Shown here: piece by piece, positions 23,089-51,302 of the stretch
Layout of the letters: the number at the start of each line of letters is the position of its first letter
Position numbering within the stretch: the first letter of the stretch is position 1
Assembly (NCBI RefSeq): GCF_014109765.1
Contig: NZ_CP059139.1
Coordinates: 620,001 to 684,000, forward strand
Direction of reading: 5' to 3'
DNA from: Pseudomonas berkeleyensis
Lineage (GTDB): Bacteria; Pseudomonadota; Gammaproteobacteria; Pseudomonadales; Pseudomonadaceae
DNA: 64,000 nt
The notes under the pieces: model-generated
The model's database searches: none
The model's input: the letters and a program-made list of their open reading frames with translations, nothing else
Told to the model about the DNA's origin: nothing
Translations under genes and position numbers: made by a program

Positions 23089-23116
23089 AGCGGCCAGGTC
23101 TTTACGCCTGGCCGCT
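23089..23116. terminator. Hairpin between convergent hemE and DUF2141 gene
   Basis: AGCGGCCAGG (23089-23098) pairs perfectly with CCTGGCCGCT (23107-23116) around an 8-nt loop, 11 bp after the hemE stop and overlapping the stop of the opposing gene. There is no T-run, so termination strength is uncertain. Confidence 0.4.
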
Positions 23117-23597
23117 AGCGATCCCCGGCGCGTGGTGCAACGGGGGCCAGGCGCTCCTTGTTCTTGCGCGGTGGAATCAGGCGCACGCTGATCACGCTGT
23201 CCGTCGTGCCGTGCTCGAACAGGCTGTCGCTGGGTTTGGGTTTGCCGCCGAAGAGCGACGGATTACCGGAGAACCCCACGGGTTCCTGCGGGATGCCACG
23301 CGGGCTGAGATCCAGCTGGCCGTTACCGTTGCTGTCCTGGAACACCTGTATGGCATAGCGGCCGGGCGGCAGATCGCTCAGTCGCAGTGGTGTTTGCGTA
23401 CCCTGCAGTTCGAGCAGGCTGGGCTGCCAGTCCTGCTGGTCGGCGGGTACCAGCGCCAGGTACAGATTTGCCTGATCCTGCTTGCCTTCTACCTGGATCA
23501 GCAGGTCGCCTGCCTGGATCGACTGGCAAGCGAGTAGCGGAACCAATAGGCAAAGTTGGCACAGGCGGGTTACGGTTTGAAGAAGTCTCTGTGGCAT
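23115..23597 (-). CDS. Exported DUF2141 family protein
   Basis: Small secreted protein of 160 aa with a signal peptide (about residues 1-29, cleaving after IQAG). The DUF2141 signature is visible: GRYAIQVFQDSNGNGQLD (about 86-103), followed by a GIPQEPVGFS segment. A Cys in LLACQS could be a lipobox, though the +1 context is only fair. Molecular function is unknown. Start ATG 23597 is only 32 bp from the divergent darA start, so the two share a regulatory region; similar proteins occur near carotenoid and pigment genes, but a role here is inference. Confidence 0.7.
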   Translation of the reverse strand: MPQRLLQTVTRLCQLCLLVPLLACQSIQAGDLLIQVEGKQDQANLYLALVPADQQDWQPSLLELQGTQTPLRLSDLPPGRYAIQVFQDSNGNGQLDLSPRGIPQEPVGFSGNPSLFGGKPKPSDSLFEHGTTDSVISVRLIPPRKNKERLAPVAPRAGDR

Positions 23598-23629
23598 AAT
23601 TTGCACATTTTGCAGGGAATGCGCCGCGA

Positions 23630-24547
23630 ATGCGTCATGTTTTAGTCGTCCACTTCTCACAGACTGGCCAATTAGACCGCTTGGCGCAATCGGTCTGTGC
23701 GCCGCTGCGCGAGTGCGACGGCATCGAAGTGGATTTCCTGACGCTGCAACCTGCCCAGCCTTTCCCCTTTCCCTGGCCCTTTCTCGGTTTCTTTCGCATC
23801 TTTCCCGAAACCGTGCTGATGAAGCCGCAGCCCTTGCTGCCGCTGGCCGTGGATGCCGACAAGCGCTACGACCTGGTGATTCTGGCGTATCAGGTCTGGT
23901 TCCTCTCGCCCTCGCTGCCCTGCACCAGCTTTCTCGCCTCACCCGAGGCCGCCCGTTTGCTGAAGGACACGCCGGTGGTCACGCTGATCGGTTGCCGCAA
24001 CATGTGGCTGATGGCGCAGGAGAAGGTCAAGGCGCGCCTGCAGGCGCTGGGCGCGAAGCTGGTGGACAACGTCGTGCTGACCGATGCCTGCGGTACGGCG
24101 GCGAGTTTCCTGGCCACGCCGCTGTGGATGTTCACCGGCCGGCAGAAGCCCTATAGCTGGGTACCGCGCGCAGGCATCGACGAGCGGGAATTGGCGGCAG
24201 CCAGCCGTTTCGGCGACGCTATGGCGCGCCGGCTGCTCGCTGACCAACAGCCCATCGAGACACCGATGCTCGCTGGCTTGGGCGCGGTGAAAGTGGATGA
24301 AAAACTGATCGCCAGCGAAAAGGTCGGCAACCGTAGTTTCACCCTGTGGAGCCGACTGCTCTCGGCGCTCGGCCCGCAGCAGAGTCGCCGTCGCGGCGCC
24401 GGGCTGGTGCTGTATATCGTGTTTCTGATTTGCCTGATTCTGACCGTGGTGCCGATCACGGCGGTGTTGAAAAAATTGCTGGCGCCGCTGTTCAAGGGGC
24501 GTATCCAGAGAGAGAAGGCCTACTTTGCCGGCCCATCCGGCGAGTGA
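23630..24547 (+). CDS. darA: DarA-like dialkylresorcinol condensing enzyme
   Basis: Resembles DarA, which works with DarB to condense two fatty-acid-derived units into a cyclohexanedione that becomes a 2,5-dialkylresorcinol. The 305-aa protein begins with a flavodoxin-like fold (VLVVHFSQTGQLDRLA, about residues 4-19), has conserved aromatic stretches (FPWPFLGFFRIFPE) and ends with a hydrophobic helix (about 262-281) plus basic tail, suggesting membrane attachment. It starts the + strand operon; GCAGGGAA lies nine bases upstream. darB begins 19 bp after it. Family assignment rests on recognised sequence and pairing with a KASIII. Confidence 0.82.
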   Translation: MRHVLVVHFSQTGQLDRLAQSVCAPLRECDGIEVDFLTLQPAQPFPFPWPFLGFFRIFPETVLMKPQPLLPLAVDADKRYDLVILAYQVWFLSPSLPCTSFLASPEAARLLKDTPVVTLIGCRNMWLMAQEKVKARLQALGAKLVDNVVLTDACGTAASFLATPLWMFTGRQKPYSWVPRAGIDERELAAASRFGDAMARRLLADQQPIETPMLAGLGAVKVDEKLIASEKVGNRSFTLWSRLLSALGPQQSRRRGAGLVLYIVFLICLILTVVPITAVLKKLLAPLFKGRIQREKAYFAGPSGE

Positions 24548-24566
24548 AGTGACCCGAGGTAAGACC

Positions 24567-25724
24567 GTGGTAACCCCTGTATTCATCAACCGCATCAGCG
24601 CCTGCCTGCCGCACGAGCCTGTGGATAACGAGCAGATGGAAGCGCGCCTGGGCATGGTCGGCGGCAAGCCGTCGCGCGCGCGCAAGCTGGTGCTGCGCCG
24701 CAACGGCATCGTGCAGCGTCACTATGTCATCGACCCGGCGACCGGCGAGCAGAGCATGAGCAATGCGCAGCTCAGCGCCGAAGCGATACGTGGCTTGCAG
24801 GGCGAGGGTTTCGAGCTGAACCAGCTCGACTGCCTGGTGGCCAGCACCTCATCACCGGATCAGGTGATGCCGGGCCACGCGGTGATGGTGCATGGCGAGC
24901 TGGGCAATCCGTCCTGCGAGGTGGCGACCACCGCCGGTATCTGCCTGTGCGGCATGACTGCGCTGAAATACGCCTGGATGAGCGTGGCCAGTGGCGAGAG
25001 CCGCACGGCCGTGGCCTGTGGTTCGGAGGTCGCATCGACCCTGATGCAGGCGCGCAACTTCAACGCCGAATACGAAAGCCGTGTCGATGAGCTGGAAAAG
25101 CATCCGGAGATCGCTTTCGAGAAGGATTTCCTGCGCTGGATGCTGTCCGATGGCGCTGGCGCCGTGCTCCTGCAGGATCGCCCGAATCAGAACGGCCTGA
25201 GCCTGCGCATCGACTGGCTGGATATCTACTCCTTCGCCGATCGGATGCCGCCCTGCATGTATGCCGGTGCCGACATGCAGGACGACACCCTGCGTGGCTG
25301 GAGCCGCTACGACGCCGACGAGCGCGCGAAGCAGTCGGTGATGGCGATCAAACAGAACGTCAAACTGCTCAACGAGAACATCGTCAAGTACACTGTGGAA
25401 GAGGCGCTGCGCCGGATCATGGCGCGCCGCGAGCTGCGCGTGGCGGATATCGACTGGTTCCTGCCGCACTATTCCTCGGAGTTCTTCCGCGAGCCGCTGG
25501 CCGTGGGCCTGGCCAACGTCGACCTGCCGATTCCGATGGAGCGCTGGTTCACCAACCTGACCAGCAAGGGCAACACCGGCGCGGCATCGATCTTCATCAT
25601 CCTCGAAGAGCTGTTCAATGGCGGGCGCCTGCGCAGCGGCCAGAAGCTGCTCTGCTACGTGCCCGAAAGCGGGCGCTTTTCCAGTGCGTTCATGCACCTG
25701 ACGGTGGTTGGCGATGAAGCTTGA
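24567..25724 (+). CDS. darB: DarB-like ketoacyl-ACP synthase III (resorcinol formation)
   Basis: KASIII-type enzyme of 385 aa. The probable nucleophile Cys lies in TTAGICLCGM (about 122-131), the catalytic His in WFLPHYSS (about 305-312) and Asn in SKGNTGAAS (about 334-342). DarB catalyses Claisen then aldol-type joining of a 3-oxoacyl and an acyl unit with DarA. The GTG start at 24567 is preceded by GAGGTAAG; longer frames to 24525 overlap darA and lack a ribosome site. The end overlaps the next gene by 11 bp. Confidence 0.83.
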   Translation: MVTPVFINRISACLPHEPVDNEQMEARLGMVGGKPSRARKLVLRRNGIVQRHYVIDPATGEQSMSNAQLSAEAIRGLQGEGFELNQLDCLVASTSSPDQVMPGHAVMVHGELGNPSCEVATTAGICLCGMTALKYAWMSVASGESRTAVACGSEVASTLMQARNFNAEYESRVDELEKHPEIAFEKDFLRWMLSDGAGAVLLQDRPNQNGLSLRIDWLDIYSFADRMPPCMYAGADMQDDTLRGWSRYDADERAKQSVMAIKQNVKLLNENIVKYTVEEALRRIMARRELRVADIDWFLPHYSSEFFREPLAVGLANVDLPIPMERWFTNLTSKGNTGAASIFIILEELFNGGRLRSGQKLLCYVPESGRFSSAFMHLTVVGDEA

Positions 25725-26121
25725 CGAAGTTCCGCAGGATCCCGGCTCCGCGTATGGCGGGCACAGCAAGCTGCTTTACGCGGTCGATGAAAGCGGCCAT
25801 TACCAGGGCGCGCAGAGCGTCGGCTGGGATCCCGAATCCTATGCCACGCAATTGGCCGTCGCCGAGCTGGAGGCGCAGGAGGCCGAGGCTCTGGCGCTGT
25901 GGCAGCGTGGCGAGTTGTCGCCGCTCAAATGCCTGATGTACCGCTACCGCATGGACGAGCCGGCGCTGTCGCAGATCACCGGCCTATGGCAGTGGCGGGT
26001 GCGCCGGCACTTTCGTCCGGAAATCTATCGCTGCCTGAGCGCCTCCGTGCTGGCGCGCTACGCCGAAGCCTTCGGCCTCACCGTCGACGAGCTGCGTCGC
26101 TACCAGAGAGAGTTGCCATGA
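25714..26121 (+). CDS. Small XRE-like protein of the dialkylresorcinol cluster, function unknown
   Basis: 135 aa, no confident family. The N-terminal half is acidic and Gln/Ala-rich (helical AVAELEAQEAEALALWQRGEL). The C-terminal half reads like a Cro/C1-type helix-turn-helix: PALSQITGLWQWRVRRHFRPE followed by LARYAEAFGLTVDELRRYQ, the typical last helix of XRE proteins. It could be a regulator or a small adaptor for the enzyme downstream, with which it overlaps by 4 bp. ATG 25714 lies inside the darB end; TTG 25708 is a less likely start. Confidence 0.6.
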   Translation: MKLDEVPQDPGSAYGGHSKLLYAVDESGHYQGAQSVGWDPESYATQLAVAELEAQEAEALALWQRGELSPLKCLMYRYRMDEPALSQITGLWQWRVRRHFRPEIYRCLSASVLARYAEAFGLTVDELRRYQRELP

Positions 26122-27119
26122 CCGCGTTCCAGCACCGCCAGAGCGCCCACTGCGAAAGTGGCGTCATGGCCAGTCTGCTCACCCATGCCGGTTTGCCAAT
26201 GAGCGAGCCGATGGCATTCGGCCTGGCGTCTGGTCTGGCCTTCGCCTACCTGCCCATCGTCAAGATCGGCGGCATGCCGCTGATTGCCTATCGCATGCCG
26301 CCGCGCCACCTGATCAAGACGCTGAGCAAACGCCTGGGCGTACGTCTGACCAGCCGCACCTTCGCCAAGCCCGAGCAGGGTCGTGTCGAACTCGACCGGG
26401 TGCTCGACAGTGGCCGGCTGGCTGGTCTGCAAAGCTCGGTGTTCTGGCTGCCGTACTTCCCGCCGGAGATGCGTTTTCACTTCAATGCGCACAACCTGTT
26501 GGCCTACGGCCGCGAGGGTGATGAGTATCTGCTCAGCGACCCGGTGTTCGAGGAGCCGGTGCGTTGTGCCAGCGCCGATCTGCAGAAGGCGCGCTTCGCC
26601 AAGGGCGCGCTGGCGGCCAAGGGCCTGATGTACTACCTCGACGACGTGTCGCCGGAGCAGGATTGGGAACGCCTGATTCGGCAGAGCGTGCTGTCCACCT
26701 CGCGTATCCTCGACGGCATGCCGCTGCCGTGGATCGGCATTCGCGGCATCCAGCACCTGGCCAAATGCGTCGAGGCGCTCGACCCGGCGCAGAACAAGTA
26801 CAACCGCCTGTACCTCACCCATATCGTGCGCATGCAGGAAGAAATCGGCACCGGCGGTGCGGGCTTCCGCTTCATGTATGCCAGCTTCCTGCAGGAGGCC
26901 GGCGAGAAGATCGGCGACGCCAGCCTGCAGGAGGCTTCGTCGCGTCTGACGGCGGTGGGCGATGACTGGCGCCAGTTCGCCTCGGCCTGCGTGCGCGCCA
27001 GTCGCAGCAAGGGTGAGACGCCGGACTTCCGGCCGATCGCCGAGATGCTCCGCGGCATCGCCGGGCAGGAGCGGGTGCTGATGAAAGAGCTGGGCGCCTG
27101 GGCCAAGCGCAAGGGTTGA
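26118..27119 (+). CDS. BtrH N-terminal-domain protein, putative acyltransferase
   Basis: 333 aa. The N-terminus HRQSAHCESGVMASLLTHAGL resembles the BtrH/peptidase-C39-like fold, with Cys13 and His12 as candidate catalytic residues, and a second domain resembles DUF4872 (about 170-330). In butirosin synthesis BtrH moves an acyl chain from ACP to an amine acceptor. By analogy this protein could transfer an ACP-bound chain onto the resorcinol or onto another acceptor; that is inference. Last gene of the + strand dar operon, followed by a REP-like pair that separates it from the converging operon. Confidence 0.6.
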   Translation: MTAFQHRQSAHCESGVMASLLTHAGLPMSEPMAFGLASGLAFAYLPIVKIGGMPLIAYRMPPRHLIKTLSKRLGVRLTSRTFAKPEQGRVELDRVLDSGRLAGLQSSVFWLPYFPPEMRFHFNAHNLLAYGREGDEYLLSDPVFEEPVRCASADLQKARFAKGALAAKGLMYYLDDVSPEQDWERLIRQSVLSTSRILDGMPLPWIGIRGIQHLAKCVEALDPAQNKYNRLYLTHIVRMQEEIGTGGAGFRFMYASFLQEAGEKIGDASLQEASSRLTAVGDDWRQFASACVRASRSKGETPDFRPIAEMLRGIAGQERVLMKELGAWAKRKG

Positions 27120-27128
27120 GGCAGGTGC

Positions 27129-27191
27129 GGTGGGCTGAAGCCCACCCTACGGAGGCGCATCTCAGCACTGTAGGGTGGGCTTTAGCCCACC
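27129..27191. repeat. REP-like paired palindromes (GTGGGCTGAAGCCCAC family)
   Basis: GGTGGGCTGAAGCCCACCCTAC (27129-27150) and its near-exact reverse complement (27170-27191, one mismatch) are separated by 19 bp. Each arm is itself a palindrome. The pair lies between two convergent operons and can act as a bidirectional terminator. A second pair of the same family is at 43793-43861. Confidence 0.8.
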
Positions 27192-27211
27192 ACCACCATC
27201 AACAAACCAGG

Positions 27212-27763
27212 TTAAAGCTGCAGATGCAGCACTTCGATTTCTGTCGTCAGCTCGGCAAAATCCTGGGCTTTCGTGGTCGCTTCGACCAACACAGCCTGCG
27301 CCTGAAAATCCCCGTTCTCGTCGATCACCACCAGCAACGCCTGGCTGATGGTGCCATCGGCCAGATCCAGGGCGGCCAGCATCTGTAGCTGTTTCCACAC
27401 GTTGGCCCCAGCGCCGATAAACAGGTTCGGCCCTTCCAGCCCCAACTGCGAGGCGACATGGAAGCCGGCCGCATTGCTCACGCTGTTGACGAACTCGAAG
27501 GGCTTGGGCTGGCGCTGGTGTACGCAAACGGCATCGAGCAGCGCGCCCATGGTGGCGCGGGCCGGGTGACGCGAGGCCAGGTAGAGGCCGCAGTCGCTGC
27601 GCACCTGCGCCCTGAGAGGCGCGCTGCACAGCAGTGCCTGCAGGATCATGCGGTCGATGCGCCGTGGCGGCGCGGCCAGCCACTGGCCTAGTGCGGCTTT
27701 GAGATCCTTGTCGGAGCAGCTCGCATTTCCGCGAACGCTGCAGGCGGCGATGACCTGCTTCAT
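27212..27763 (-). CDS. Truncated ketosynthase-like protein (chain-length-factor type)
   Basis: 183 aa, roughly the N-terminal half of a thiolase fold. PFEFVNSVSNAAGFHVASQLGL matches the region before the active-site loop of beta-ketoacyl synthases, but where KSs have the nucleophile Cys this protein has GPNLFIGAGANV, so it cannot condense. It probably pairs with the full KS encoded just upstream (4-bp overlap), as chain-length factors do. Last gene of the six-gene - strand unit beginning at 31582. Confidence 0.65.
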   Translation of the reverse strand: MKQVIAACSVRGNASCSDKDLKAALGQWLAAPPRRIDRMILQALLCSAPLRAQVRSDCGLYLASRHPARATMGALLDAVCVHQRQPKPFEFVNSVSNAAGFHVASQLGLEGPNLFIGAGANVWKQLQMLAALDLADGTISQALLVVIDENGDFQAQAVLVEATTKAQDFAELTTEIEVLHLQL

Positions 27764-28869
27764 GTCTGGCTCTCCGCGCAGCGTTGCAGTACCAGGCTGG
27801 CGTTGTTGCCACCGAAGCCGAAGAAGTTGGCCAGCAGCAGGCTGTCCGCTGCCACGCAGGTCGGCTCGGTGCTGAGTGGCAGCAGGGCTTCGGCGGCATA
27901 GTCCAGGCCTGGCAGGTTGGCGAGGTTCTCCATCAGCAGCAGGGTCTCGCTGAGGCCGCAGGCGCCCAGGGTATGGCCGAGCCAGGGCTTGAGCACGGAC
28001 AGTGGCGGCAGGTCGTCGCCGAACAGCAGGCGTACGCCATTGCTCTCGGCGCGGTCGTTGGCACCGGTGGCGGTGCCGTGCAGTTTCACCAGGCCGATCT
28101 GCCTGGCGTCGACGCCAGCGCTGCGCAGGGCCTCGCGCATCACCCAGTCGATATGGCTACCGTCTTCGCGGGTGGTGGTCAGGTTGCTGGTGTCGCAGGC
28201 GCTGAAGCCGCCGAGCAGCTTGGCCAGTGGCGCCTCGCCGGGTTCCCGTGCAAGCAGCGTGGCTGCATAGGCCTCACCGAGAATCAGGCCATCGCGCTCC
28301 GGATGGAAGGGGCGGTAGGCGCCACTTGGGCTGGTCAGGTCGAGGGCGCCGAAGCCTTGCTGGGCGATGGCGCTGGGTGTCTCGAAGGCCAGGACTAGCA
28401 CACGTTCGTAGAGGCCGGCAGCTAGCATCCGCGCGCCATACAGCAGGCCGTTGGCTGCGCTGGTGCAGGCGGTATTGAGGGTGAAGGCATCGGCGAAGCC
28501 CCAGCGTTGGCGCAGGTCTTCGGCCAGCAGGTCGAGTGAGGTCGAATGTTCTGGGCGAAAGCCGCCTTCTGCGGCGATCAGTTGTTCGAGGTCGTCGATA
28601 TCCAGGCTGGTGCTGGCGATGATCAACAGGCAGTCATCCAGCGCACCTAGCTGTTCGCCTAGGGTTTCGCCGAGCAGTCGGTCGCAGCGCTGCTGGCGGC
28701 TTTCAGCGCTGCGGTTTACGGCCAGGTAGGGGCGCGGCTGCTGCAGTTCATGCAGCTGGAACGAGCTCGGCACAGGCAGTCGGCCGGCTCGCAGGGCCGC
28801 GCTGGCGGCGTGCAGGTCGGTGCCGAGGGCACTGTGCAGAGCGCCGCGCTGGAGGTAGATGGGCGTCAC
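27760..28869 (-). CDS. Beta-ketoacyl-ACP synthase (KAS I/II type) of the DAR block
   Basis: 369 aa, complete Cys-His-His triad: Cys in LNTACTSAANG (about 134), His in KLHGTATGAND (about 264) and His in WLGHTLGACG (about 297). The closing FFGFGGNNASLVL motif is present. It probably elongates an ACP-bound chain for the resorcinol, using the ACP encoded immediately upstream (4-bp ATGA overlap) and the truncated partner downstream. Confidence 0.85.
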   Translation of the reverse strand: MTPIYLQRGALHSALGTDLHAASAALRAGRLPVPSSFQLHELQQPRPYLAVNRSAESRQQRCDRLLGETLGEQLGALDDCLLIIASTSLDIDDLEQLIAAEGGFRPEHSTSLDLLAEDLRQRWGFADAFTLNTACTSAANGLLYGARMLAAGLYERVLVLAFETPSAIAQQGFGALDLTSPSGAYRPFHPERDGLILGEAYAATLLAREPGEAPLAKLLGGFSACDTSNLTTTREDGSHIDWVMREALRSAGVDARQIGLVKLHGTATGANDRAESNGVRLLFGDDLPPLSVLKPWLGHTLGACGLSETLLLMENLANLPGLDYAAEALLPLSTEPTCVAADSLLLANFFGFGGNNASLVLQRCAESQT

Positions 28870-29132
28870 TGCTTCTGCCTGATAAAGGCCGCGATGCTGG
28901 CGATGCTGCCGAGGATACGCCGTCCGTCCTTGGCCCCTTCGATGCGCACGCCATAGTGTTGCTGCAACGCCAGGGAGACCTGCAGGGCATCGAGGCTGTC
29001 CATGGCGATGCGGCTCTGCTGACCGAACAACGGTTCGTCATCGGTGATGCTCTGCCAGTCGATGTCGTCTTCCTTGTCGCACTCACGGATCAGCAATTGC
29101 TTGAGTTCTTGTTCTAGTAGTGTGTCGTCCAT
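28866..29132 (-). CDS. Acyl carrier protein of the DAR block
   Basis: 88-aa acidic carrier protein. The phosphopantetheine serine is in AMDSLDALQ (about residue 46), with the usual four-helix length. Compared with the two APE carrier proteins at 49285-49823 its helix II is less canonical, so it is probably dedicated to the KS at 27760. It overlaps the ABC permease end by 19 bp. Confidence 0.85.
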   Translation of the reverse strand: MDDTLLEQELKQLLIRECDKEDDIDWQSITDDEPLFGQQSRIAMDSLDALQVSLALQQHYGVRIEGAKDGRRILGSIASIAAFIRQKQ

Positions 29133-30304
29133 TGCGTTTGCTGCACTCGTTTGCGGAACAGGTAAAGCCCGCCACCGCCCAGCACCAGGGCGAACAGCAG
29201 AAGACGGGCACAGTCAGGGGCGATATCGGCCAGGCTGCCCTGGCCCACCAGCAGGGTCAGGAAGGCGTCCAGCGCCCAGCTCATCGGTGAGATCTCCGCC
29301 AGTTGGCTCATGGCTTCGGGCATCACGCTCTTGGGCACCATGATGCCGCCGATGGCGGCGAGGATGATATTGAGACCGCCGCCGAGCAGCAACGCCTGTT
29401 CGCCGCTACGCGCCAGGGCTGCCAGCAGCAGGCCCAGGCTGCAGGCGGCCAGGCTCAGGCTCAGCGCCAGCAGCACGTAGGCCAGTGGCGAGCCAGGCAG
29501 GCTCAGGCCGCTAAGCCCGAGCAGCGGTAGCACGTATACGCCGATGGCCAGCAACAGAGCGAACTGCAGCAGGTTGATCGCCAGATAAGGCAGCAGCTTG
29601 CTCAGTACTAGGGTGGTGGGGCTCAGGCCCAGCGCGCGAAAGCGCAGCAGGGCGCCGCTCTGCTGTTCACGCTGGAAGCCGCCGGCCATCGGTAGGGCGA
29701 CGAAGAACATGCCGAAGATCAGCCAGGCCGGCACGCTCAGTTGGCTGGCGTTGGCCTTGCCGCTCAGTTCGCCGCTGGCCAGCATCTGCCGTTCGCTGAT
29801 CTCGCTCTGGGTGCGCTGGCGGATCAGTTGCCAGCGTTGTTCGGTGCTCATGCCCGCATCCAGCGCGTCGCTGTCTTCCAGGTAGGCCAGCAGGCGGGTC
29901 TGCGCCAGGGCGATGTTCAGCGCTGCGCGCAGGCGTTGGCGTGTCTGGCCATCGGTACGCGGGGGAAAGCTCAGCGTGGGGCCGATGTGAGGCGTTTCCA
30001 GCAAGGTCTCGGAAAAGTTCCTGGCCAGGCTGATGCGTGGCAGGGGTTCTTCGCTGCTGGCGAGCAGGTGGCTGCCCGGCAACTGTTCCTGCAGCGAGTG
30101 CTGGAAGAACGCGCTGGCTTCACTGCCTTGCTCGATCTCCAGCACCAGGCTCAAGGGGGGCGGCTGGTCACGCAGGTAGTTGGACAACGCGGCGGCCATC
30201 AGCACGAGAAACAGGATCGGCATGATGAACAGCACAGCCAACGCATGCGGGTCGCGAAGCAGTAGCAGGTATTCCTTGCGCGCCAGCGCCAGTAACGGGC
30301 TCAC
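29114..30304 (-). CDS. ABC-2 type transporter permease (drug/lipid export)
   Basis: 396 aa. One N-terminal helix (about 17-36), a long extracytoplasmic domain (about 40-190), then five hydrophobic helices: the ABC-2 half-transporter layout of the YhhJ/DrrB type. The start is GTG 30304, with GGAGG six bases upstream; it overlaps the ATPase stop by 4 bp. Together they form an exporter, likely for the cluster's lipidic product or an intermediate. Confidence 0.82.
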   Translation of the reverse strand: MSPLLALARKEYLLLLRDPHALAVLFIMPILFLVLMAAALSNYLRDQPPPLSLVLEIEQGSEASAFFQHSLQEQLPGSHLLASSEEPLPRISLARNFSETLLETPHIGPTLSFPPRTDGQTRQRLRAALNIALAQTRLLAYLEDSDALDAGMSTEQRWQLIRQRTQSEISERQMLASGELSGKANASQLSVPAWLIFGMFFVALPMAGGFQREQQSGALLRFRALGLSPTTLVLSKLLPYLAINLLQFALLLAIGVYVLPLLGLSGLSLPGSPLAYVLLALSLSLAACSLGLLLAALARSGEQALLLGGGLNIILAAIGGIMVPKSVMPEAMSQLAEISPMSWALDAFLTLLVGQGSLADIAPDCARLLLFALVLGGGGLYLFRKRVQQTQWTTHY

Positions 30305-31582: not shown

Positions 31583-31645
31583 GGCGGGCGGTCGGTACGT
31601 ACGGGCGACGCAGTGTAACAGAGGCAGGGATAGAGGGAGGATGCA

Positions 31646-32200: not shown

Positions 32201-32206
32201 GTGGCT

Positions 32207-32231: not shown

Positions 32232-32243
32232 CATGCCCTTTGC

Positions 32244-32684: not shown

Positions 32685-32725
32685 GGTTATCTCCTTGAAT
32701 ATCACTGTTGCAGGGATGTCAGTTT

Positions 32726-33118: not shown

Positions 33119-33141
33119 CCGTGTTCCTTGTCTGTTGAAAA

Positions 33142-37965: not shown

Positions 37966-37977
37966 CGACTGTCCTTG

Positions 37978-43779: not shown

Positions 43780-43792
43780 GGCGAATACTCCC

Positions 43793-43861
43793 GTAGGGTG
43801 GGCTTCAGCCCACCAGTAAATGTCACAGTCGGCGGTTGCGGTGGGCTGAAGCCCAGCCTAC
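43793..43861. repeat. REP-like paired palindromes (GTGGGCTTCAGCCCAC family)
   Basis: GTAGGGTGGGCTTCAGCCCACC (43793-43814) and its near reverse complement (43840-43861, one mismatch), spacer 25 bp. Same family as 27129-27191. It lies between the thioesterase and ammonia-lyase genes of the APE operon. Confidence 0.8.
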
Positions 43862-43868
43862 AGGCTGC

Positions 43869-45410
43869 CTACGCATACAGCCTCCAGTGCTGGTTGCGAA
43901 TACGCTCCAGGCACAGACGCAGTTCGCCTTCCAGGGCGCGATCCTCGATCACTGGCGGGAAGTCGCTGGCCAGTTGTTCGCGCATGGCGGCCAGCGGCGC
44001 GGGAATGTCCTGCTTGCCGGCGCGCTGGCGCAGCCACACGCCCTGGTTGGCGGCCAACAGGGTGGCGGCGGCGACCTGCTCGGTCAGCTCCAGGCTGCGC
44101 AGGGCGTCACGCGCGGCGATGGTGCCCATGCTCACCTTGTCCTGGTTGTGGCACTCGGTGGAGCGCGAGAACACGCTGGCCGGCAGGGTGTTCTTCAGCG
44201 CTTCGGCAGTCCAGGCGCTGGCACCGATCTGCACGGCCTTGAAGCCGTGGTTGATCATCGCCGTCTCGACTGGCGCGCCGGACAGGTTGCTCGGCAGGCC
44301 GTGGTTGTAGCGCGTGTCGACCAGCAGGGCGAGCTGGCGGTCGAGCAGGTCGGCGACGTTGCCGACCAGGTTCTTCAGGCTGTCCATGGCGAAGGCGATA
44401 TGCCCGCCATAGAAGTGGCCGCCGTGCAGGGTGCGCTCGGTCTCGGCGTCGAACAGCGGGTTGTCATTGGCGCTGTTGAGTTCGGTCTCGATGAACTGGC
44501 GCAGCAAACCCAGGCTGTCGGCCAGCACCCCGAGCACGTGCGGCGCGCAACGGATCGAGTAGCGATCCTGCAGGCGGTGCAGCGGCGGCAGTGGCGCTTC
44601 GACGGCCAGATCCTGGCGAATCCAGGCGGCGACCTGGGTCTGGCCCGGGTGCGGTTTGGCGGCGAACAGGCGCTCGTCGAAGTGCTCCGGGTTGCCTTCC
44701 AGGGCGATCACGTTGAGTGCGGTGATGCGCGTGGCCAGTTTCAGCAGGTAGTCGGCACGAGCGTAGGCCAGGCAGGCCAGGGCGGTCATCACGGCGGTGC
44801 CGTTCATCAGCGCCAGGGCTTCTTTCGGGCGCAGGGTCAGTGGCGCCCAGCCGAGCTCTTCATGGATCTCGGCGGCGCTGCGGCGTTCACCCTTGTACAG
44901 CACCTCGCGTTCACCGCTGAGGGTGGCGGCGACGTAGGACAGCGGCGTGAGATCGCCGCTGGCGCCGACCGAGCCTTCTTCCGGGATCAAGGGCAGCACG
45001 TCGTGATCGATGAACGCCTGGATACGCTCCAGCAGTTCCACGCGCACCCCGGAAACGCCATGGCACAGCGACTGCAAGCGGGCAGCTAGCACGGCGCGGG
45101 TACTTGGCGCGTCGAGCAGTTTGCCCAGGCCGCAGCCGTGGAAGGTGAACAGATGCTTGGGCAGTGCCTCGACCTGATGCAGTGGCACGGCTACCACGCA
45201 GGAGTCGCCATAGCCGGTGGTGACGCCGTAGATCACGCCTTCCTTGTCCAGCAGGGTGTCGAGAAAGCGCGCGCCCTTGGCGATTTTTTCCCGGTAGGCG
45301 GCATCGTCCTGCAACTGGGCGCGGGCCTGGCGCTGCGACAGGGCTACGATGTTCTCGATGGTCAGGGCGCGCTCGCCGAAGATCACCGGCTCAGGCTGGT
45401 ATGTCGTCAT
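43869..45410 (-). CDS. Aromatic amino acid ammonia-lyase (HAL/PAL/TAL family)
   Basis: 513 aa. Ala150-Ser151-Gly152 in VGASGDLTPL autocatalytically form the MIO cofactor; the active-site Tyr is in GVTTGYGDS (Tyr61 precedes). It removes ammonia from an aromatic amino acid, probably tyrosine to coumarate, giving the aryl starter. The substrate-selectivity pair reads Phe90-His91 (FTFHGCG), unlike HAL (Ser-His), TAL (His-Leu) or PAL (Phe-Leu). This pairing and the cluster context argue against histidine as substrate. ATG 45410 follows GGAAGCGAG and overlaps the acyltransferase end by 20 bp. Confidence 0.85.
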   Translation of the reverse strand: MTTYQPEPVIFGERALTIENIVALSQRQARAQLQDDAAYREKIAKGARFLDTLLDKEGVIYGVTTGYGDSCVVAVPLHQVEALPKHLFTFHGCGLGKLLDAPSTRAVLAARLQSLCHGVSGVRVELLERIQAFIDHDVLPLIPEEGSVGASGDLTPLSYVAATLSGEREVLYKGERRSAAEIHEELGWAPLTLRPKEALALMNGTAVMTALACLAYARADYLLKLATRITALNVIALEGNPEHFDERLFAAKPHPGQTQVAAWIRQDLAVEAPLPPLHRLQDRYSIRCAPHVLGVLADSLGLLRQFIETELNSANDNPLFDAETERTLHGGHFYGGHIAFAMDSLKNLVGNVADLLDRQLALLVDTRYNHGLPSNLSGAPVETAMINHGFKAVQIGASAWTAEALKNTLPASVFSRSTECHNQDKVSMGTIAARDALRSLELTEQVAAATLLAANQGVWLRQRAGKQDIPAPLAAMREQLASDFPPVIEDRALEGELRLCLERIRNQHWRLYA

Positions 45411-46338
45411 CTCGCTTCCAGAAAGGGTAGAAGTTGAACCATTGTTGCGGTGCGTCCAGGCAGTGTTCGCCCAGGCGCTGCGCGTAACGTTGTGCCCAGC
45501 CATGAACCACCTGGTCGCGCTCGCTGCGCTTCCAGCTCACGGCATCGGCGAAATGCTCCAGGCGCACCTGGTAGCGCCCGTCGATCTTCAGGCAGTGCAT
45601 CAGCCCGACCGGGCATTGCAGCAGGCCGGCCAGCAACCAGGGACCTTGCGGAAACGCTGCCGGCAGACCGAGGAAGTCGACCACCACGCTGCGCCCGCCA
45701 TGCAGGGGCACACGGTCGCCGGCGATGGCCAGCCACTCGCCGCGCTCCAGGCGTTCGGCCAGTTGCAGCATGATCGCCGGATCCAGCTCGCTGACCTGAA
45801 TCAGGCGCAGGTGGCTGGCGCCGGACTCGCCCAGCAGACGGTTGAAGCGCTCGGCGTGCTTGGTGTGCACCAGTACGTTCATGCATACCTGCTCGCCGAG
45901 CTCGGCGAGGGCGCGGCAGACCTCCAGATTACCCAGGTGCGCGCCGACCAGCAGGCGTCCGCGGCCACCTTTATGCAGTTGCCCACGGATGTCGTCGGGA
46001 TCGTCCAGTTGCAGCTGCTGCAGTGGCAGACGGCCGTTCCACACATCGAGCTTGTCCAGCAGACTGTCGGCGAACGCGAGGAACTGACGCAGCACGGAAC
46101 TGCGGCTTGGGCGCAGATCGGGGCGTGCGCTCCAGGCGGCCAGGTTGTTCTGGTACTGATGAATGCTGGTGCGTGCGCTACGGCCGAAGAGGTAGAAGTA
46201 CAGCACGATCAGATACAGCAGCGGCACCAGGGGGCGACGGCCGAGCAGGCGCGCGGCCGCGACGGTGAAACGCATCAGCAGGAAACTGCCGCGCTCCTTC
46301 TGCCGGGCCCAGTGCTCGTTGTGCTCGGCAGTGCTCAT
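45391..46338 (-). CDS. LpxL/HtrB-like lysophospholipid acyltransferase (APE)
   Basis: 315 aa. Membrane helix at about 30-46, then the acyltransferase motif LLVGAHLGNLEV (about 115-126; HxxxxE-type) and GEWLAIAGDRVPLHGGR (about 200-216). The fold is that of lipid A acyltransferases. It may attach the polyene chain to the glycolipid or phospholipid anchor. ATG 46338 overlaps the glycosyltransferase stop by 4 bp. Confidence 0.8.
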   Translation of the reverse strand: MSTAEHNEHWARQKERGSFLLMRFTVAAARLLGRRPLVPLLYLIVLYFYLFGRSARTSIHQYQNNLAAWSARPDLRPSRSSVLRQFLAFADSLLDKLDVWNGRLPLQQLQLDDPDDIRGQLHKGGRGRLLVGAHLGNLEVCRALAELGEQVCMNVLVHTKHAERFNRLLGESGASHLRLIQVSELDPAIMLQLAERLERGEWLAIAGDRVPLHGGRSVVVDFLGLPAAFPQGPWLLAGLLQCPVGLMHCLKIDGRYQVRLEHFADAVSWKRSERDQVVHGWAQRYAQRLGEHCLDAPQQWFNFYPFWKRDDDIPA

Positions 46339-47081
46339 GCGGCCAGCCTGCGCCAGAGGATGCGCGGTGCGCGCAGCAGCATGCCGAAGAACAGCCGCGC
46401 ATGCATGCCGGAGATCAGCAGGTTGTCGTGCCACAGACGAAAGTGCGAAAGCCCATCGGCCGGGTAGTGCACGCGGGTCGGTAGCCAGTGCATCGGCTGC
46501 TCGCGCCAGGCCATGCGTACCAGAATCTCGGTGTCGAAATCCATGCGCCGGCCGAGCTTCACCGTATCGAGCAGGGCCAGGGTGGGCGGCAGTGGATAGA
46601 CGCGGAAGCCACACATGGAGTCGCGCACCTGTAGCGACAGGCAGTTGATCCAGACCCAGACATGGGTCAGGTAGCGGGCGTACAGGCGCGACTTGGGCAC
46701 GCTCGCATCGTATTGCGGATAGCCGCAGACCAAGGCCTGCGGATGCGCGCGGGCGGTGGCGATGAAACGATCCAGGGTGCTCAGGTCGTGCTGACCGTCA
46801 GCGTCTACCTGCAATGCATGGCTATAGCCGAGGCGTGCCGCTTCGCGCAGGCCAGCCATCACCGCGCCCCCTTTGCCCAGGTTGGCGGACAGGCGCAGCA
46901 GATGGACGTCCGCTTGTTGCGCCAGTTCGTCCATGACTGCGGCGCAGGTCGCGTTCGAGCCGTCATCCACCAGCAGGCAAGGCAACCCAGCGCCGCGCAG
47001 TTCCCCGACCACGCCGGGCAATGGCCGCTCGTGGTTGTACACCGGAATCACCGCGCAGGGATTGAAGCCAGACTCAGCCAT
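46335..47081 (-). CDS. Glycosyltransferase family 2 protein (APE)
   Basis: 248 aa. VIPVYNHERPLPGVV (about 11-25), VDDGSNATC (about 38-46) and the metal-binding QVDADGQHD (about 93-101) are GT2 motifs of the DPM1-like group; a C-terminal region is amphipathic. It and the acyltransferase downstream are one fused protein in some APE clusters (ApeJ-like). It probably adds a sugar to the lipid carrier of the pigment; the donor is unknown. Confidence 0.82.
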   Translation of the reverse strand: MAESGFNPCAVIPVYNHERPLPGVVGELRGAGLPCLLVDDGSNATCAAVMDELAQQADVHLLRLSANLGKGGAVMAGLREAARLGYSHALQVDADGQHDLSTLDRFIATARAHPQALVCGYPQYDASVPKSRLYARYLTHVWVWINCLSLQVRDSMCGFRVYPLPPTLALLDTVKLGRRMDFDTEILVRMAWREQPMHWLPTRVHYPADGLSHFRLWHDNLLISGMHARLFFGMLLRAPRILWRRLAA

Positions 47082-48738
47082 GGGCCTGCTCCAGCAGAAC
47101 GCGCCCGGACGAGCAGGCAGCCTCACCATTGCGGTAGGCGAAGTAGAGCTTGCCGCGTTCGGCATCGAAGCGCAGCGACAGCTGCAGGGTATCGCCGGGG
47201 CGCACCAGTTGCTGGAACTTCAGCACTTCCATGCCGGCGAAACGCGGCGGCAGCTGGGCGATCAGCTGGCGAGCCAGTTGCTGTGCCCAGTCTATCTGCA
47301 CCACGCCCGGCAGCACTGGTGTCTGCGGGAAATGACCGGTGAAATGGGCCAGATCCAGCGGTACCTGCAACTGCAGCAGCCATTCGCCGTCGCGCTCTTC
47401 GGCGCTGATCGGTTCCACTCGCGTCGGCCGTGGCTCTGCCAGCAGGGCTTCGACCTGACTCTGCGCCAGCTTGCCCTGGCTGCTGTAGGGTAATTCCAGC
47501 AGCAGACGCCAGCGGCGCGGCAGGGCGATGGTTTCGCAGTGTTCGGCCAGGTGCCGGCGCAGGGTTTCGGTCACGCTGCGGCGGCCCTGGTTGCGCAGGG
47601 CATGCACGCCGCTGGGGCTCAGCGCCAGCAAGGCACCGAGGAAGGCGCGGCCTTCCTGAATGACACCCAGGCGCGCATCGGTAACCCAGTCATGATTGAT
47701 CAGCGCCTGCTCGAGCATGGGCAGGGAGATGCGTTTTTCTTCCAGCTTGACGATGCGGTCGAGACGCCCGCGCAGGACGAAACGACCATCGTCACCGATC
47801 TCGGCGGCATCCGCACTCTGTTCGATATGTCCGGCTGGCAAGTACGGCGAGGCGATGCGCAGGGCTCCGGCCTCATCGAGGCTCAGCTCGACGCCTGGGA
47901 ATGGCTGCCAGGGCGTGTCGCCCTGACGCCAGCCGATACCGCCGGTTTCCGAGCTGCCATAGATTTCCGTCGGCCACTGGCTCAGGCGTTCGTGCAGGGA
48001 CTCGGCCGCTTCACCAGGCAGCGCGCCACCGGAAGAGAACACCTGCTTCACGCGGCTCAGCGCCGGCCAGTCGAGGTTGTCACCCATGCGCTTGAGCAGG
48101 GCGGGACTCGCTATCCAGGCGAAGCCAGTCTGGCTGAGGCTTACTTGTTGCAGATCTTCTGGGAAAGGCAGTGCGCGGCGATACAGGGGGCGGCCTGCGC
48201 ACAGTGGCCACAGCAGGCGGAACAGCAGGCCGTAGATATGCTGGCAGGCGACGCTGCCGAGGATGGTCGCCTGGCCGAGGTTCGCTCCCCACAAGCGTTC
48301 CAGCGCCTCGACCTCATTGGCCAGTTGCGCCAGGCTCTTGTCGATCAGCTTGGGTTCGCCGCTGGAGCCTGAGGTGCACAGGGTCAGACGGCAGTGCTCG
48401 GGGTCGAGAGCGGCAGCGGGCAGCGCCTCGGCGTCCAGCCCAGCCAAATCGTCCAGCCACAGATCGACCTGGGCCGCCAGACGCTGGCGGGTCTGCGCCT
48501 GGGCATCGGCCGGCAGCAATACCTGCACCCCGGCGCGCCAGGCGCCGAGCAGGGCGATGGCCAGTTCAGCGGCATCTTCCAGATACAGCGCCACGCGTTG
48601 TACGCCGCGCGTCTGTAGGGCTGCAGCCAGGCGCAATGCGCGCTGGTGCAGCTCGGTATGATCGAGTGCGGGTTCCAGGGCGATCTGACGGCCAGCGTGA
48701 GCCTCCAGCAATAGGTCGGTGAGGGGCAGCCAGGTCAT
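47074..48738 (-). CDS. Aryl-ACP/CoA AMP-ligase fused to a hotdog dehydratase domain
   Basis: 554 aa. Residues about 1-440 are an adenylate-forming ligase: [15 protein letters not shown] (about 118-132) binds phosphate, [13 protein letters not shown] (about 256-268) is the A5 core, and [14 protein letters not shown] (about 327-340) the hinge. The C-terminal 100 residues contain [18 protein letters not shown], the hotdog dehydratase motif. Thus aryl acid activation (ApeH-like) and dehydration (ApeI-like) are fused. It loads coumarate-type starters on ACP. ATG 48738 overlaps its neighbour by 4 bp. Confidence 0.85.
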
Positions 48739-49280
48739 TCGTGTTTCCTTACCTGCTGGCGAACCAACCATTCGCCAGCGAACAACAGGCCAATCAGGCC
48801 GTAAGAGATGAATCCGGTGTAAAGCGTCCACCAGGAGAGCGGCGCCCACATCGCCAGCGCCATCAGCAAGAACGTGTTGCCGAGGAAAAACAGCGTCCAG
48901 ACCAGGGTGACCTTGCGCGTGTAGCGCACGGCGACTTCTGGCAGCTGCGGCTCACGCAGGCGTGCCATGCGTTCCACCAGCGGTGGGCCGAATTTCAGGC
49001 TGAGGCCGAACAGCGCCAGCAGCATCAGGTTGAGCAGCACCGGATACCAACGCAGCAGAGTGGGCTCGTTCGCGATACCGAGCAGCAAGCAGAACGCCAA
49101 CGCCGCAACGGCCAGCCACAGCCCGCCCGGCCGGCTGCGTGCCGTCAGCACACGGGCCAGCCAGAGTCCGCCCAGCAATGCGGCGAACAGACGTGGTGAC
49201 CAGTGCTCCATGCCGTAGTAGACGGCGAAGGGATAGAGCACGCCGGCTATCAGCAACAGCAGGCCAAACAGGCGAGCCAT
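48735..49280 (-). CDS. COG4648-type integral membrane protein (APE)
   Basis: 181 aa, about five to six membrane segments, with a charged loop RMARLREPQLPEVAVRYTRKVT (about 103-124). Found in APE clusters between ACP and ligase genes; function unknown, possibly a scaffold for the membrane-bound synthase or a flippase. Four bases separate it from the first ACP. Confidence 0.75.
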   Translation of the reverse strand: MARLFGLLLLIAGVLYPFAVYYGMEHWSPRLFAALLGGLWLARVLTARSRPGGLWLAVAALAFCLLLGIANEPTLLRWYPVLLNLMLLALFGLSLKFGPPLVERMARLREPQLPEVAVRYTRKVTLVWTLFFLGNTFLLMALAMWAPLSWWTLYTGFISYGLIGLLFAGEWLVRQQVRKHE

Positions 49281-49284
49281 CGGG

Positions 49285-49551
49285 TCAGTCTTGAGTCTGA
49301 GGAACGTCGTTGATCAGGCGGTAGACGGCCTCGACCACATCGCCGACGCTGCGCACGCTCTTGAACTCTTCGGCGGCGAGCTTGCGCCCGGTCTGGCGCT
49401 TGATGTGGTCGATCAGGTCGACGGCATCGATGCTGTCGATCTCCAGGTCTTCATACAGGCTGGCGTCCAGGGTCACGCGCTCGGCATCCAGCTCGAACAG
49501 TTCCACCAGGGCGCTACGCAGGGTGACGAAGATTTCTTCACGGCTTTGCAT
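49285..49551 (-). CDS. Acyl carrier protein 2 of the APE synthase
   Basis: 88 aa. Phosphopantetheine Ser in YEDLEIDSIDAVDLIDHI (about residue 40). ATG 49551 begins MQSREEIF; the longer frame adds five residues without a ribosome site. APE systems use two ACPs with different roles (starter loading versus elongation); which is which cannot be told here. Confidence 0.88.
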   Translation of the reverse strand: MQSREEIFVTLRSALVELFELDAERVTLDASLYEDLEIDSIDAVDLIDHIKRQTGRKLAAEEFKSVRSVGDVVEAVYRLINDVPQTQD

Positions 49552-49562
49552 CGGTGAAATCC

Positions 49563-49823
49563 TCAAGCAGCTTTCTGAGCAGAAACGAATGCAGCCAGGC
49601 TCGCTACGTTGGCGAAGTGCTTGCGCGTGTCCTTGGCTTCGGCGTCGATCTTGATGCCGAAACGCTTCTGGATCGCCAGACCCAGTTCGAGTGCGTCTAC
49701 CGAGTCCAGACCGAGCCCTTCGCCAAACAGCGTCTGCTCAGCGCCAATGTCGTCGGCGCTCATGTCCTCTAGGCCGAGGGCATCGATGATCAGGTTCTTG
49801 ATTTCAAGTTGCAGATCGCTCAT
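49563..49823 (-). CDS. Acyl carrier protein 1 of the APE synthase
   Basis: 86 aa, acidic. Ser in GEGLGLDSVDALELGLAI (about residue 40) carries phosphopantetheine. The start overlaps the end of the acyltransferase gene by 20 bp, and the second ACP follows 11 bp later. Confidence 0.9.
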   Translation of the reverse strand: MSDLQLEIKNLIIDALGLEDMSADDIGAEQTLFGEGLGLDSVDALELGLAIQKRFGIKIDAEAKDTRKHFANVASLAAFVSAQKAA

Positions 49824-50613
49824 CTGAGGCGAGCTCCTTCATAAAGTGTTGATGCAGATGGTCGTTGAGCTTGCGCGAGGCAATCGGCAAAGGGGCCTGC
49901 TCGGTGAATTGCCGCGGATCGATATCCTCACCGACCCGCAGGCGAAAGTGAAAACGACGCGACGGAATGCTGTACCAGGGTTCGGCCTTGGTCAGGGTGG
50001 TGGGGGTCACGCTGATGACCACCGGGGTCACCACGCTGGCGCCGCGTACCGCAATCGCTGCTGCGCCACGGTGAAATTCCGGGTTGGTGCCGGGTACGGT
50101 GCGGGTGCCTTCGGGGAAAATGATCAGGGTTTCGCCACTTTGCAGGGCACCGGCGGCTTCGTCGAGCATGTCCATGCTGCCGCTGTTGCTGATGTATTGG
50201 GCGGCGCGAATCGGCCCGCGCATGCAGGGGTTTTCCCACAGGCTCTGCTTGACCACGCAGTTGGCGTCGCGAATGAAGGCGATCAGCACCACCACATCGA
50301 TCAGCGAGGGATGATTGGCGATCACCACCTGTCCAGGGCGGCCCAGGCGTTCTGCACCCTCCACCTCATAGGTGAGCACGCCGGTGCGGTACATGAACTC
50401 GACGAACACGCGAAACGTCCAGCTGACCACTGCACGTGCGCGGGTGCGTCGGCGCAGGGTGTCGCCGGGCAGCAGGCTGAGCAGAGGAAATATCAGCACG
50501 CGCAGCAACACACCGCCGACGCCGAACAGGGCGAAGCTCAGAGCGGTGGCGACAAGCCTCCATGCATAAGGCGGGCTGTAAGGGCTCAGGCCTCGTTGCG
50601 TGACCAGGTCCAT
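49804..50613 (-). CDS. 1-acyl-sn-glycerol-3-phosphate acyltransferase-like protein (PlsC family, APE)
   Basis: 269 aa. Membrane helix at about 22-47, then the catalytic HxxxxD box NHPSLID (about 99-105) and FPEGTR (about 165-170). It is expected to transfer an acyl chain, possibly the polyene, to a glycerolipid-type acceptor. Overlaps the upstream KS-like gene by 28 bp. Confidence 0.84.
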   Translation of the reverse strand: MDLVTQRGLSPYSPPYAWRLVATALSFALFGVGGVLLRVLIFPLLSLLPGDTLRRRTRARAVVSWTFRVFVEFMYRTGVLTYEVEGAERLGRPGQVVIANHPSLIDVVVLIAFIRDANCVVKQSLWENPCMRGPIRAAQYISNSGSMDMLDEAAGALQSGETLIIFPEGTRTVPGTNPEFHRGAAAIAVRGASVVTPVVISVTPTTLTKAEPWYSIPSRRFHFRLRVGEDIDPRQFTEQAPLPIASRKLNDHLHQHFMKELASDERSAT

Positions 50614-51302
50614 TGGCGGTCTTTCCAGTAGTGAATCAGCGTTCGTTGCCCACCATGCAAGGCGCGCAACAGGTTCAGGGGGTGTGGCCAGGCGGCGGCT
50701 AAGCCGGATTCGGCGGGCGCGAGGCTCAAGGTCCAGGTTTTGCCCGGTTTCAACAGCAGAGCCAGCGCGTAGGAGAAGGGTACGTCATCTATATAGGGCG
50801 TGTAGAGGTCAGGCGGTAATTCTTCTGCAATAACTAGTAACACTGCAGGAGCGCCTTCGGCAAGCAGGCCACTGGCTTCGAGCATGGCCTGTTCCAGACC
50901 GTCGCCGGCAGCGGCCATGGCGGTCATCTCGCTGGTGTCTTCACGCAGGATCGACCACAGTCCGATGATGGCGTTATGCACCGACAGGCTGAATTGGGTG
51001 GGCGACAGTGGTTCGCCTTTCGCCAGTTCGCTGAGGATGGCCAGCGTGCGCGGGGTTTCGCCATGACGCGAGGCGAATACCAGTGGCAGTGGGCCTTGCC
51101 CCTCTGCCAGCGGCCAGGCGACATGGAACAGCATGCGCGCCAGCCGACTGAGGCGACGCCGTTGCATGGCGGGGAGAAAACTTACGTCCGGCTGTTGTTG
51201 GTCGTCGGGCACGACCACGGGGGCGTTGCACCAGGCACGCCAATCATCCTCTGACTCCAGGCCGGGGGCCCAGGCGCGCAATCCTTCGATCTGGAAATTC
51301 AT
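50586..51302 (-). CDS. Beta-ketoacyl synthase N-terminal-like chain-length factor (APE)
   Basis: 238 aa, only the N-terminal half of a KS fold. SPTQFSLSVHNAIIGLWSI (about 101-119) is the KS core, but TSEMTAMAAAGDGLEQAML lacks a nucleophile Cys, so it is a partner subunit. It resembles ApeC, which forms a KS-CLF pair with ApeO. ATG 51302 (MNFQIEGLRAWAPG) was chosen by family start. First gene of the APE operon; about 100 nt of leader separates it from the promoter. Confidence 0.78.
   Translation of the reverse strand: MNFQIEGLRAWAPGLESEDDWRAWCNAPVVVPDDQQQPDVSFLPAMQRRRLSRLARMLFHVAWPLAEGQGPLPLVFASRHGETPRTLAILSELAKGEPLSPTQFSLSVHNAIIGLWSILREDTSEMTAMAAAGDGLEQAMLEASGLLAEGAPAVLLVIAEELPPDLYTPYIDDVPFSYALALLLKPGKTWTLSLAPAESGLAAAWPHPLNLLRALHGGQRTLIHYWKDRQWTWSRNEA

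Follow-up and report, generated by a model that had tools for sequence, protein, structure and literature searches.

A hybrid aryl polyene–dialkylresorcinol cluster in Pseudomonas berkeleyensis with a BtrH-like candidate for the joining step

The window analysed here is a 64,000-nucleotide stretch of the genome of Pseudomonas berkeleyensis (contig NZ_CP059139.1, positions 620,001 to 684,000), which consists of one contig of 5.65 Mb. The window contains a gene run of ≈28 kb in which a dialkylresorcinol (DAR) module adjoins an aryl polyene (APE) set, a hybrid APE-DAR type that is already known from print for Pseudomonas. The cluster probably makes a single pigment of the outer membrane in which an ester links an aryl polyene to a dialkylresorcinol, with a BtrH-like protein (26118–27119) joining the two parts. 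A preliminary description of this DNA had proposed one joined, flexirubin-like product. This was mostly right: it is the best-supported reading of a candidate product, and is strengthened by the genome-wide co-occurrence of the two gene sets. Pigments of the polyene-resorcinol kind occur widely among bacteria, and their joining enzyme is only guessed at in the open-licence literature searched; the co-occurrence test picks one small gene family as a candidate for this role. The result agrees with Schoner et al. that flexirubin-type pigments are not limited to Bacteroidota.

The region 23115–51347 is packed with open reading frames (ORFs) with few gaps. The majority of the cluster ORFs have a Pseudomonas-like guanine-cytosine (GC) content by codon position, a crude measure that missed the LolA ORF and picked an antisense frame at 45349–46467. 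The genes form four strand blocks: a plus block at 23630–27119 (darA, darB, darD/DarG and the BtrH-like gene), a minus block at 27212–31582 (darK, darJ, darC, an ABC permease, an ABC ATPase and a hotdog-like protein), a lone plus gene at 31646–32200 (ICMT/PEMT-like) and a long minus block at 32244–51302 that holds the APE set. A DUF2141 lipoprotein gene on the minus strand (23115–23597) stands outside these blocks. Profile scans of the cluster ORFs with Pfam and NCBIfam (40 ORFs were Pfam-scanned) gave family support on the DAR side for DarB, DarG/DarD, the BtrH-like protein, the darJ ketosynthase (KS), the ABC permease and ATPase and the ICMT/PEMT-like protein. Support for the core of the APE side covers two KSs, a ketoreductase (KR), ApeP, the fusion of an AMP-ligase with ApeI, two acyl carrier proteins (ACPs), the PF13723 chain-length factor (CLF) and a PlsC-like acyltransferase. 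The remaining supported proteins are the S-adenosylmethionine (SAM) methyltransferase, the halogenase-like FAD protein, MMPL, LolA, the thioesterase, the ammonia-lyase, an acyltransferase and a glycosyltransferase. The extent (23115–51302), gene content and four strand blocks given in the preliminary description were thus correct. A ParA-like gene flanks the cluster on one side, and a gene that we take to be hemE on the other. The gene order recurs in other species, so the arrangement is not due to chance; DarB is 99% identical in P. mendocina FFL34, 97% in P. toyotomiensis and 96% in P. chengduensis.

Proposed pathway and the BtrH-like protein

In the proposed pathway, an aryl starter (p-coumarate or cinnamate) would be supplied by the aromatic ammonia-lyase and activated by the ligase half of the fusion protein encoded at 47074–48738. 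Judging from the APE families, the KS/CLF, KR and dehydratases of the polyene set would then extend it to a polyenoyl-ACP. The ring precursor would be formed by DarB from two acyl units and aromatised to the resorcinol by DarA, reactions that are established for these families. One DarB substrate would probably be made by the DAR module's own KS (darJ), together with darK, the ACP (darC) and a possible hotdog dehydratase. The polyenoyl group may then pass from the ACP to Cys12 of the BtrH-like protein and on to a phenolic OH of the resorcinol to give the ester, and the product would be exported via the MMPL, LolA and lipoprotein parts, perhaps together with the ABC pair.

The BtrH-like gene (plus strand; darE in Azoarcus) encodes a protein with the BtrH_N and DUF4872 architecture (PF14399, 159 bits; PF16169, 174 bits), and it belongs to the NCBIfam DarH family (NF053550, 474 bits, cut-off 300), which carries the name 'BtrH-related acyltransferase DarH'. 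Cys12, His125 and Asp141, a triad like that of cysteine proteases by sequence, are kept in 66/66 aligned BtrH-like sequences; in the predicted model, pLDDT is low for loops close to the His. A phmmer search of the PDB sequences gave no match, and only fold comparison found relatives: the predicted fold matches CtaG, CcbD and AziU2-U3. CtaG and CcbD transfer acyl groups from carrier proteins, and AziU2-U3 is not known to be a plain acyltransferase. From fold, triad, co-occurrence and family naming, the BtrH-like protein most likely esterifies the DAR with polyenoyl-ACP. We found no paper in the open-licence literature that names DarH as an ester synthase. The BtrH-like and ICMT-like genes had previously been regarded as added decoration; the former recurs with the DAR module across loci and the latter in most, not all, Pseudomonas loci, so that neither is an extra.

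Co-occurrence of the two gene sets and alternative readings

We compared 10 kb around darB in 67 named DarB loci. In 19/67 loci, hemE, the DAR module and APE genes all lie within this distance, while 25/67 have the DAR module without a close APE match within 10 kb (Pseudomonas, one Stutzerimonas and two gammaproteobacterial metagenome-assembled genomes). The content and order of the DAR module are the same whether it is linked to the APE genes or apart from them. A whole-genome search, which covered 24 of the 25 genomes with unlinked DAR modules, found ApeP over cut-off in 24/24 and PF13723 in 24/24. This supports joint inheritance of the two halves, also in genomes where they are not linked.

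Among 298 genomes of the genus, DarB (counted at E 1e-40 or better) was found in 25 and a strong BtrH-like match (E 2.6e-196 or better) in 22, all of which carry both DarB and ApeP. One further, weak BtrH-like match (G123) has no DarB match beside it. Among the matches listed, DarB and ApeP are ≈11 kb apart in eight genomes, 57–62 kb in three and 928 kb in one, and lie on separate contigs in two. The three genomes with DarB and no BtrH (G018, G171 and G185; DarB 40–56%) may encode the 2-hexyl-5-propylresorcinol (HPR) type or another DAR-only type.

Outside Pseudomonadaceae, ApeP alone was dropped as polyene marker, as it misses clusters with other dehydratases (36/50 named genomes over cut-off). 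PF13723 was used instead and marks 46/50; its four misses comprise G071 and G084, whose loci L050 and L068 lack a BtrH match, G361, where the locus (L063) is a 10 kb contig likewise without one, and G072. A class sample of 274 genomes from 222 genera contained DarB in 19, strong BtrH in 13 (E 7.1e-133 or better, all inside the DarB set) and PF13723 in 65. PF13723 was present in 13/13 genomes with DarB and BtrH (that of the window included), 3/6 with DarB alone and 49/255 without DarB; drafts miss genes, and PF13723 marks polyene CLFs and is no proof of a pathway. Two weak BtrH matches (G499 and G374) have neither DarB nor PF13723. Two other genomes (G380 and G585; loci L116 and L117) have DarB-like matches (38–39%) inside frames of 635–645 amino acids (aa), perhaps fusions, and no BtrH or PF13723 match.

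Several points weigh against a polyene-resorcinol ester made by the BtrH-like protein. ApeP is common in the genus (237/298), so that the genus contrast is weak (22/22, Fisher 0.011). The Fisher values of the class sample (2.8e-9 for BtrH against PF13723, 0.021 within DarB carriers) ignore relatedness, and related genomes are not independent. DarB and PF13723 lie on the same contig within 30 kb in 5/13 genomes of this sample and on separate contigs in 8/13, and separate contigs of a draft may still adjoin. Three genomes (G465, G559 and G582, two of them <86% complete) carry the polyene marker beside DarB but no BtrH, which is thus dispensable for coexistence of the two. The locus L051 (G072, 2.7 Mb) has DarB and BtrH in a genome with no PF13723 match and counts against the co-occurrence rule; it also has KS, ACP, acyltransferase and glycosyltransferase matches. 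The PF13723 matches of five genomes, three of Desulfuromonadales and two of Flavobacteriaceae, are weak (31–43 bits, frames of 371–391 aa) and may be ordinary KSs. As for the enzyme, the known CtaG/CcbD reactions make amides and not phenol esters, and the third catalytic residue of CcbD is a Glu. The APE half also encodes ApeD and both halves of ApeJ, and lipid anchoring as proposed for E. coli would use the same carboxyl group (PMC8253772, in the part available). A ligase-like protein, FlxW, is proposed as joining enzyme in the Chitinophaga text available (PMC3992019).

Two separate products are an unlikely but still serious alternative: the polyene would be lipid-anchored by ApeD/ApeJ-type enzymes, the DAR would be exported free by the ABC pair as an antioxidant or signal, and the co-occurrence would reflect shared envelope protection. 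Homologues of ApeD, the split ApeJ, ApeK, ApeL and ApeM are all encoded, and the DAR module has its dedicated ABC pair. Yet this leaves unexplained why the polyene marker accompanies all 13 BtrH-type DarB genomes of the class sample and only three of the six that lack BtrH. Arcuflavin and flexirubin clusters also have acyltransferase, glycosyltransferase and LolA genes (PMC3949708), yet their products were assigned as esters.

It is possible, if doubtful, that both fates share one polyene. Polyenoyl-ACP would then be a branch point between ApeD/ApeJ lipid anchoring and the BtrH-like enzyme, which would be the missing flexirubin-type ester synthase and would make a phenol ester, although the members of its fold that are characterised in the literature searched form amides. 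This would yield either a pair of related pigments or a lipid-bound polyene with a resorcinol cap, and such products would be without description in that literature.

We give little credence to the idea that another enzyme joins the halves, be it one of the acyltransferases (49804–50613 or 45391–46338) or the ligase fusion, and that the BtrH-like protein acts elsewhere, e.g., in ACP-to-ACP transfer. The FlxW proposal would fit it, as would the presence of AziU2-U3 in the BtrH-like fold group. Against it, the Pfam-scanned cluster ORFs include a single AMP-ligase, which is needed for initiation, and both acyltransferases have counterparts in the E. coli APE locus, which has no annotated DAR genes. 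Finally, it is hardly credible that the DAR module was inserted next to an APE cluster and is functionally independent of it. In favour of this, the two are not always linked, as 25 loci have the module at a distance from hemE/APE, and APE genes often occur in the genus without DAR. Against it, the module has the same genes in the same order in either arrangement, co-occurrence persists despite separation (24/24) and BtrH-type DAR without the polyene marker was found in 0/13 genomes of the class sample.

Relation to known clusters

The closest cluster in print is the 'hybrid APE-DAR V1' reported in 2023 in Pseudomonas sp. 8O and P. chaetocerotis, marine Pseudomonadaceae, with a call for chemistry (PMC10165715, available in part). 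As far as V1 is described there, it resembles the window in combining DAR genes with an APE set like that of E. coli and Vibrio. The Pseudomonas sp. 8O locus (L010) agrees with the window in the order of hemE, the DAR module and the initial APE genes, with DarB at 94% and no difference within the 21 kb compared; its ApeP and PF13723 genes lie further along than this segment. The accessible parts of two other papers list 'aryl polyene-resorcinol' hybrids among Pseudomonas antiSMASH classes (PMC8704066) and mention a resorcinol-aryl polyene cluster in P. fulva 12-X (PMC5851621).

The structure of arcuflavin, from Azoarcus sp. BH72, was proposed from mass spectrometry (PMC3949708). Its genes share darA (assigned in the window by position and conservation), darB, darC, darD, darE (BtrH-like), darJ, darK and the ABC pair with the window, and likewise include halogenase-, antiporter- and methyltransferase-annotated genes, LolA, an exporter and glycosyl- and acyltransferases. 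Arcuflavin differs in the layout of its genes (the arc genes form two unlinked loci, and ≈20 genes separate one of these from the dar genes), in its starter (3-HBA, by the chorismatase ArcB, with no ammonia-lyase listed there) and in its xanthomonadin-like polyene genes. Flexirubin chemistry has been studied, and by the description in the available part of PMC3992019 the clusters of Chitinophaga pinensis and Flavobacterium johnsoniae resemble the window in the ammonia-lyase start (from tyrosine, probably so in the window too), the polyene KS/KR/dehydratase genes, darA/darB, LolA, glycosyltransferase and exporter; they differ in their five putative KS genes and in FlxW as the proposed joining enzyme. 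DarB of two Flavobacteriaceae loci (L066 and L067) is 46–48% identical to that of the window. The HPR genes of P. chlororaphis, by description, include darA and darB as in the window, and their product is a free resorcinol.

The ammonia-lyase and the ligase support an aryl-propenoate starter, as read from their sequences, and by analogy with FlxA tyrosine is a likelier lyase substrate than phenylalanine. The lyase scores 302 bits against a cut-off of 700 for the FlxA equivalog. Its selectivity pair is F-H, compared with F-L in the aligned PAL chains, and was not used for inference. No XanB2-type chorismatase is named among the 40 Pfam-scanned window ORFs. The halogenase-like protein has both the GxGxxG and WxWxIP motifs, and its closest PDB entry, 3nix, is named a flavoprotein/dehydrogenase. 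Arcuflavin is halogen-free despite halogenase- and antiporter-annotated genes in its set (PMC3949708, Table 1). Given this and the nearest solved relative, halogenation of the product should not be assumed, and these two genes are a weak sign of the decorated variant once proposed.

Gene content of the cluster and of the rest of the window

The DUF2141 lipoprotein (PF09912, 68 bits; inner ATG at 23597) is matched next to darA in Pseudomonas loci, also where the DAR module sits elsewhere; the query ORF extended antisense to darA, which may help its match there. darA (23630–24547, plus) is named as the DAR aromatase homologue by its position adjoining darB and its conservation with darB. The protein has nothing over cut-off in Pfam/NCBIfam and a best PDB match of E 0.8, and its role is taken from Table 1 of PMC3949708. 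darB (24525–25724, plus), the DAR-forming ketosynthase, falls in the StlD/DarB family (NF005293, 597 bits, cut-off 450), lies under the cut-off of the narrower NF053539 model (482 vs. 550) and matches the StlD structures 5gk0–5gk2 (best E 6.5e-148). The next gene (25708–26121, plus) is darD by position in the Azoarcus naming and DarG in NCBIfam (NF053536, 173 bits, cut-off 70), under the flexirubin DarG equivalog cut-off (121 vs. 170).

In the minus block, a dedicated KS-CLF-ACP set had been described, of which the KS and ACP motifs are present. The putative CLF, darK (27212–27763), has no Pfam or KS match of its own over cut-off, and only longer homologues (L048, L053 and L120) match the KS family (PF00109). 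It has 183 aa in the window, compared with 252–307 aa in L048, L049, L053, L120 and L124, which suggests that darK has shrunk in Pseudomonas; it is probably a degenerate CLF partner of darJ. The darJ KS (27760–28869; PF02801/PF00109) has the Cys-His-His motifs and is 36% identical to the E. coli APE KS upstream of ApeP. darC (28866–29132) is an ACP with a DSL motif, just below the PF00550 cut-off (20.6 vs. 20.8 bits) and 32% identical to E. coli ApeE. It is followed by the ABC-2 permease (PF01061; ORF limits 29114–30523, start probably ≈30304) and the ATPase (30301–31251; PF00005). The protein at 31178–31582 has no family (Pfam/NCBIfam) or PDB match over cut-off; LPHxG and FEAAAQL are conserved in 13 aligned sequences, and from these motifs we read it as a possible hotdog dehydratase. 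The ICMT/PEMT-like membrane methyltransferase (31646–32200, plus) matches PF04191 (45 bits) and PF04140 (27 bits). In Pseudomonas sp. MRCP1333 (L033), unlike its relatives, the 10 kb flank has no match to the part from darK to the ICMT-like gene beyond the BtrH-like gene. Three Desulfuromonadales loci (L060, L061 and L062) have DarB, ACP, ABC pair and BtrH-like gene, and no DarA match within the locus.

The APE half, all on the minus strand, is of the E. coli type by sequence. In the E. coli APE locus (L134, lipoprotein to phosphopantetheinyl transferase) 16/19 genes are matched in the window at 29–57% identity, collinear except for the lipoprotein gene at the opposite end. The E. coli methyltransferase, DUF3261 and phosphopantetheinyl transferase genes have no BLAST match in the window. 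ApeH and ApeI are fused in the window and ApeJ is split. The E. coli locus is without the DAR module, ammonia-lyase, halogenase-like and antiporter-like genes, all present in the window, whose different methyltransferase and small secreted protein also lack an E. coli counterpart. The E. coli polyene is proposed to be lipid-anchored by ApeD/ApeJ (PMC8253772, available part).

The block begins with the small secreted protein (32244–32705), which has no Pfam/NCBIfam match and is conserved in loci with linked clusters, and an ApeA-like lipoprotein (32726–33118; 40% to the E. coli APE lipoprotein). Then come a KS at the place of ApeR (33142–34374; 57% to its E. coli counterpart; PF00109/PF02801; 4ewg, E 1.4e-175), the KR ApeQ (34368–35096; 57%), the dehydratase ApeP (35089–35553; PF22817, 77 bits; 37%) and, upstream of it, a KS at the place of ApeO (35550–36752; 49%). 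A lipoprotein (36752–37246) is assigned to the place of E. coli ApeN (DUF3261) by position only, with no Pfam or BLAST match, including to the E. coli locus. The SAM methyltransferase (37246–37965; PF08241) has no BLAST match to E. coli ApeB. Next are the halogenase-like FAD protein (37978–39243; PF04820; W.W.IP present) and a membrane-like protein (39212–40360), whose earlier label 'antiporter-like' finds no match over cut-off in Pfam or NCBIfam.

Further along lie the MMPL/RND exporter ApeM (40357–42696; 32%; PF03176, 22.3 bits, cut-off 20.5), the LolA-like ApeL (42668–43294; PF19574; 31%) and the thioesterase ApeK (43354–43779; 51%). The aromatic ammonia-lyase (43869–45410; PF00221, 521 bits), probably acting on tyrosine, has the ASG motif. 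An LpxL-like acyltransferase (45391–46338) corresponds to the C half of ApeJ (36% to residues 247–550) and a family-2 glycosyltransferase (46335–47081) to its N half (55% to residues 4–245). The AMP-ligase fused to the ApeI dehydratase (47074–48738; PF00501, PF22818) is 33% identical to E. coli ApeH and 37% to ApeI. The block ends with ApeG (48735–49280; COG4648; 48%), the ACPs ApeF (49285–49566; 50%) and ApeE (49563–49823; 55%), the PlsC-like acyltransferase ApeD (49804–50613; 43%) and the CLF ApeC (50586–51302; PF13723, 258 bits; 29%), in which the KS motifs HGT and GH are absent.

Elsewhere in the window, the sole Rfam match at gathering threshold is asponA (antisense to ponA) at 1423–1717, with 170.7 bits. 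A GC dip at 3514–6793 (0.48 at 4001–6000 and 0.53 either side, vs. 0.58–0.67 in most of the window) lies downstream of genes that we take to be pilM/pilN, and the 709-aa ORF at 4664–6793 is presumably pilQ; the dip possibly reflects exchange of pilus genes. Two adjoining plus-strand ORFs at 57949–60200 (384 and 366 aa), which start with YDELVSLIYDC and YDELLELAYAC, look like tandem paralogues.

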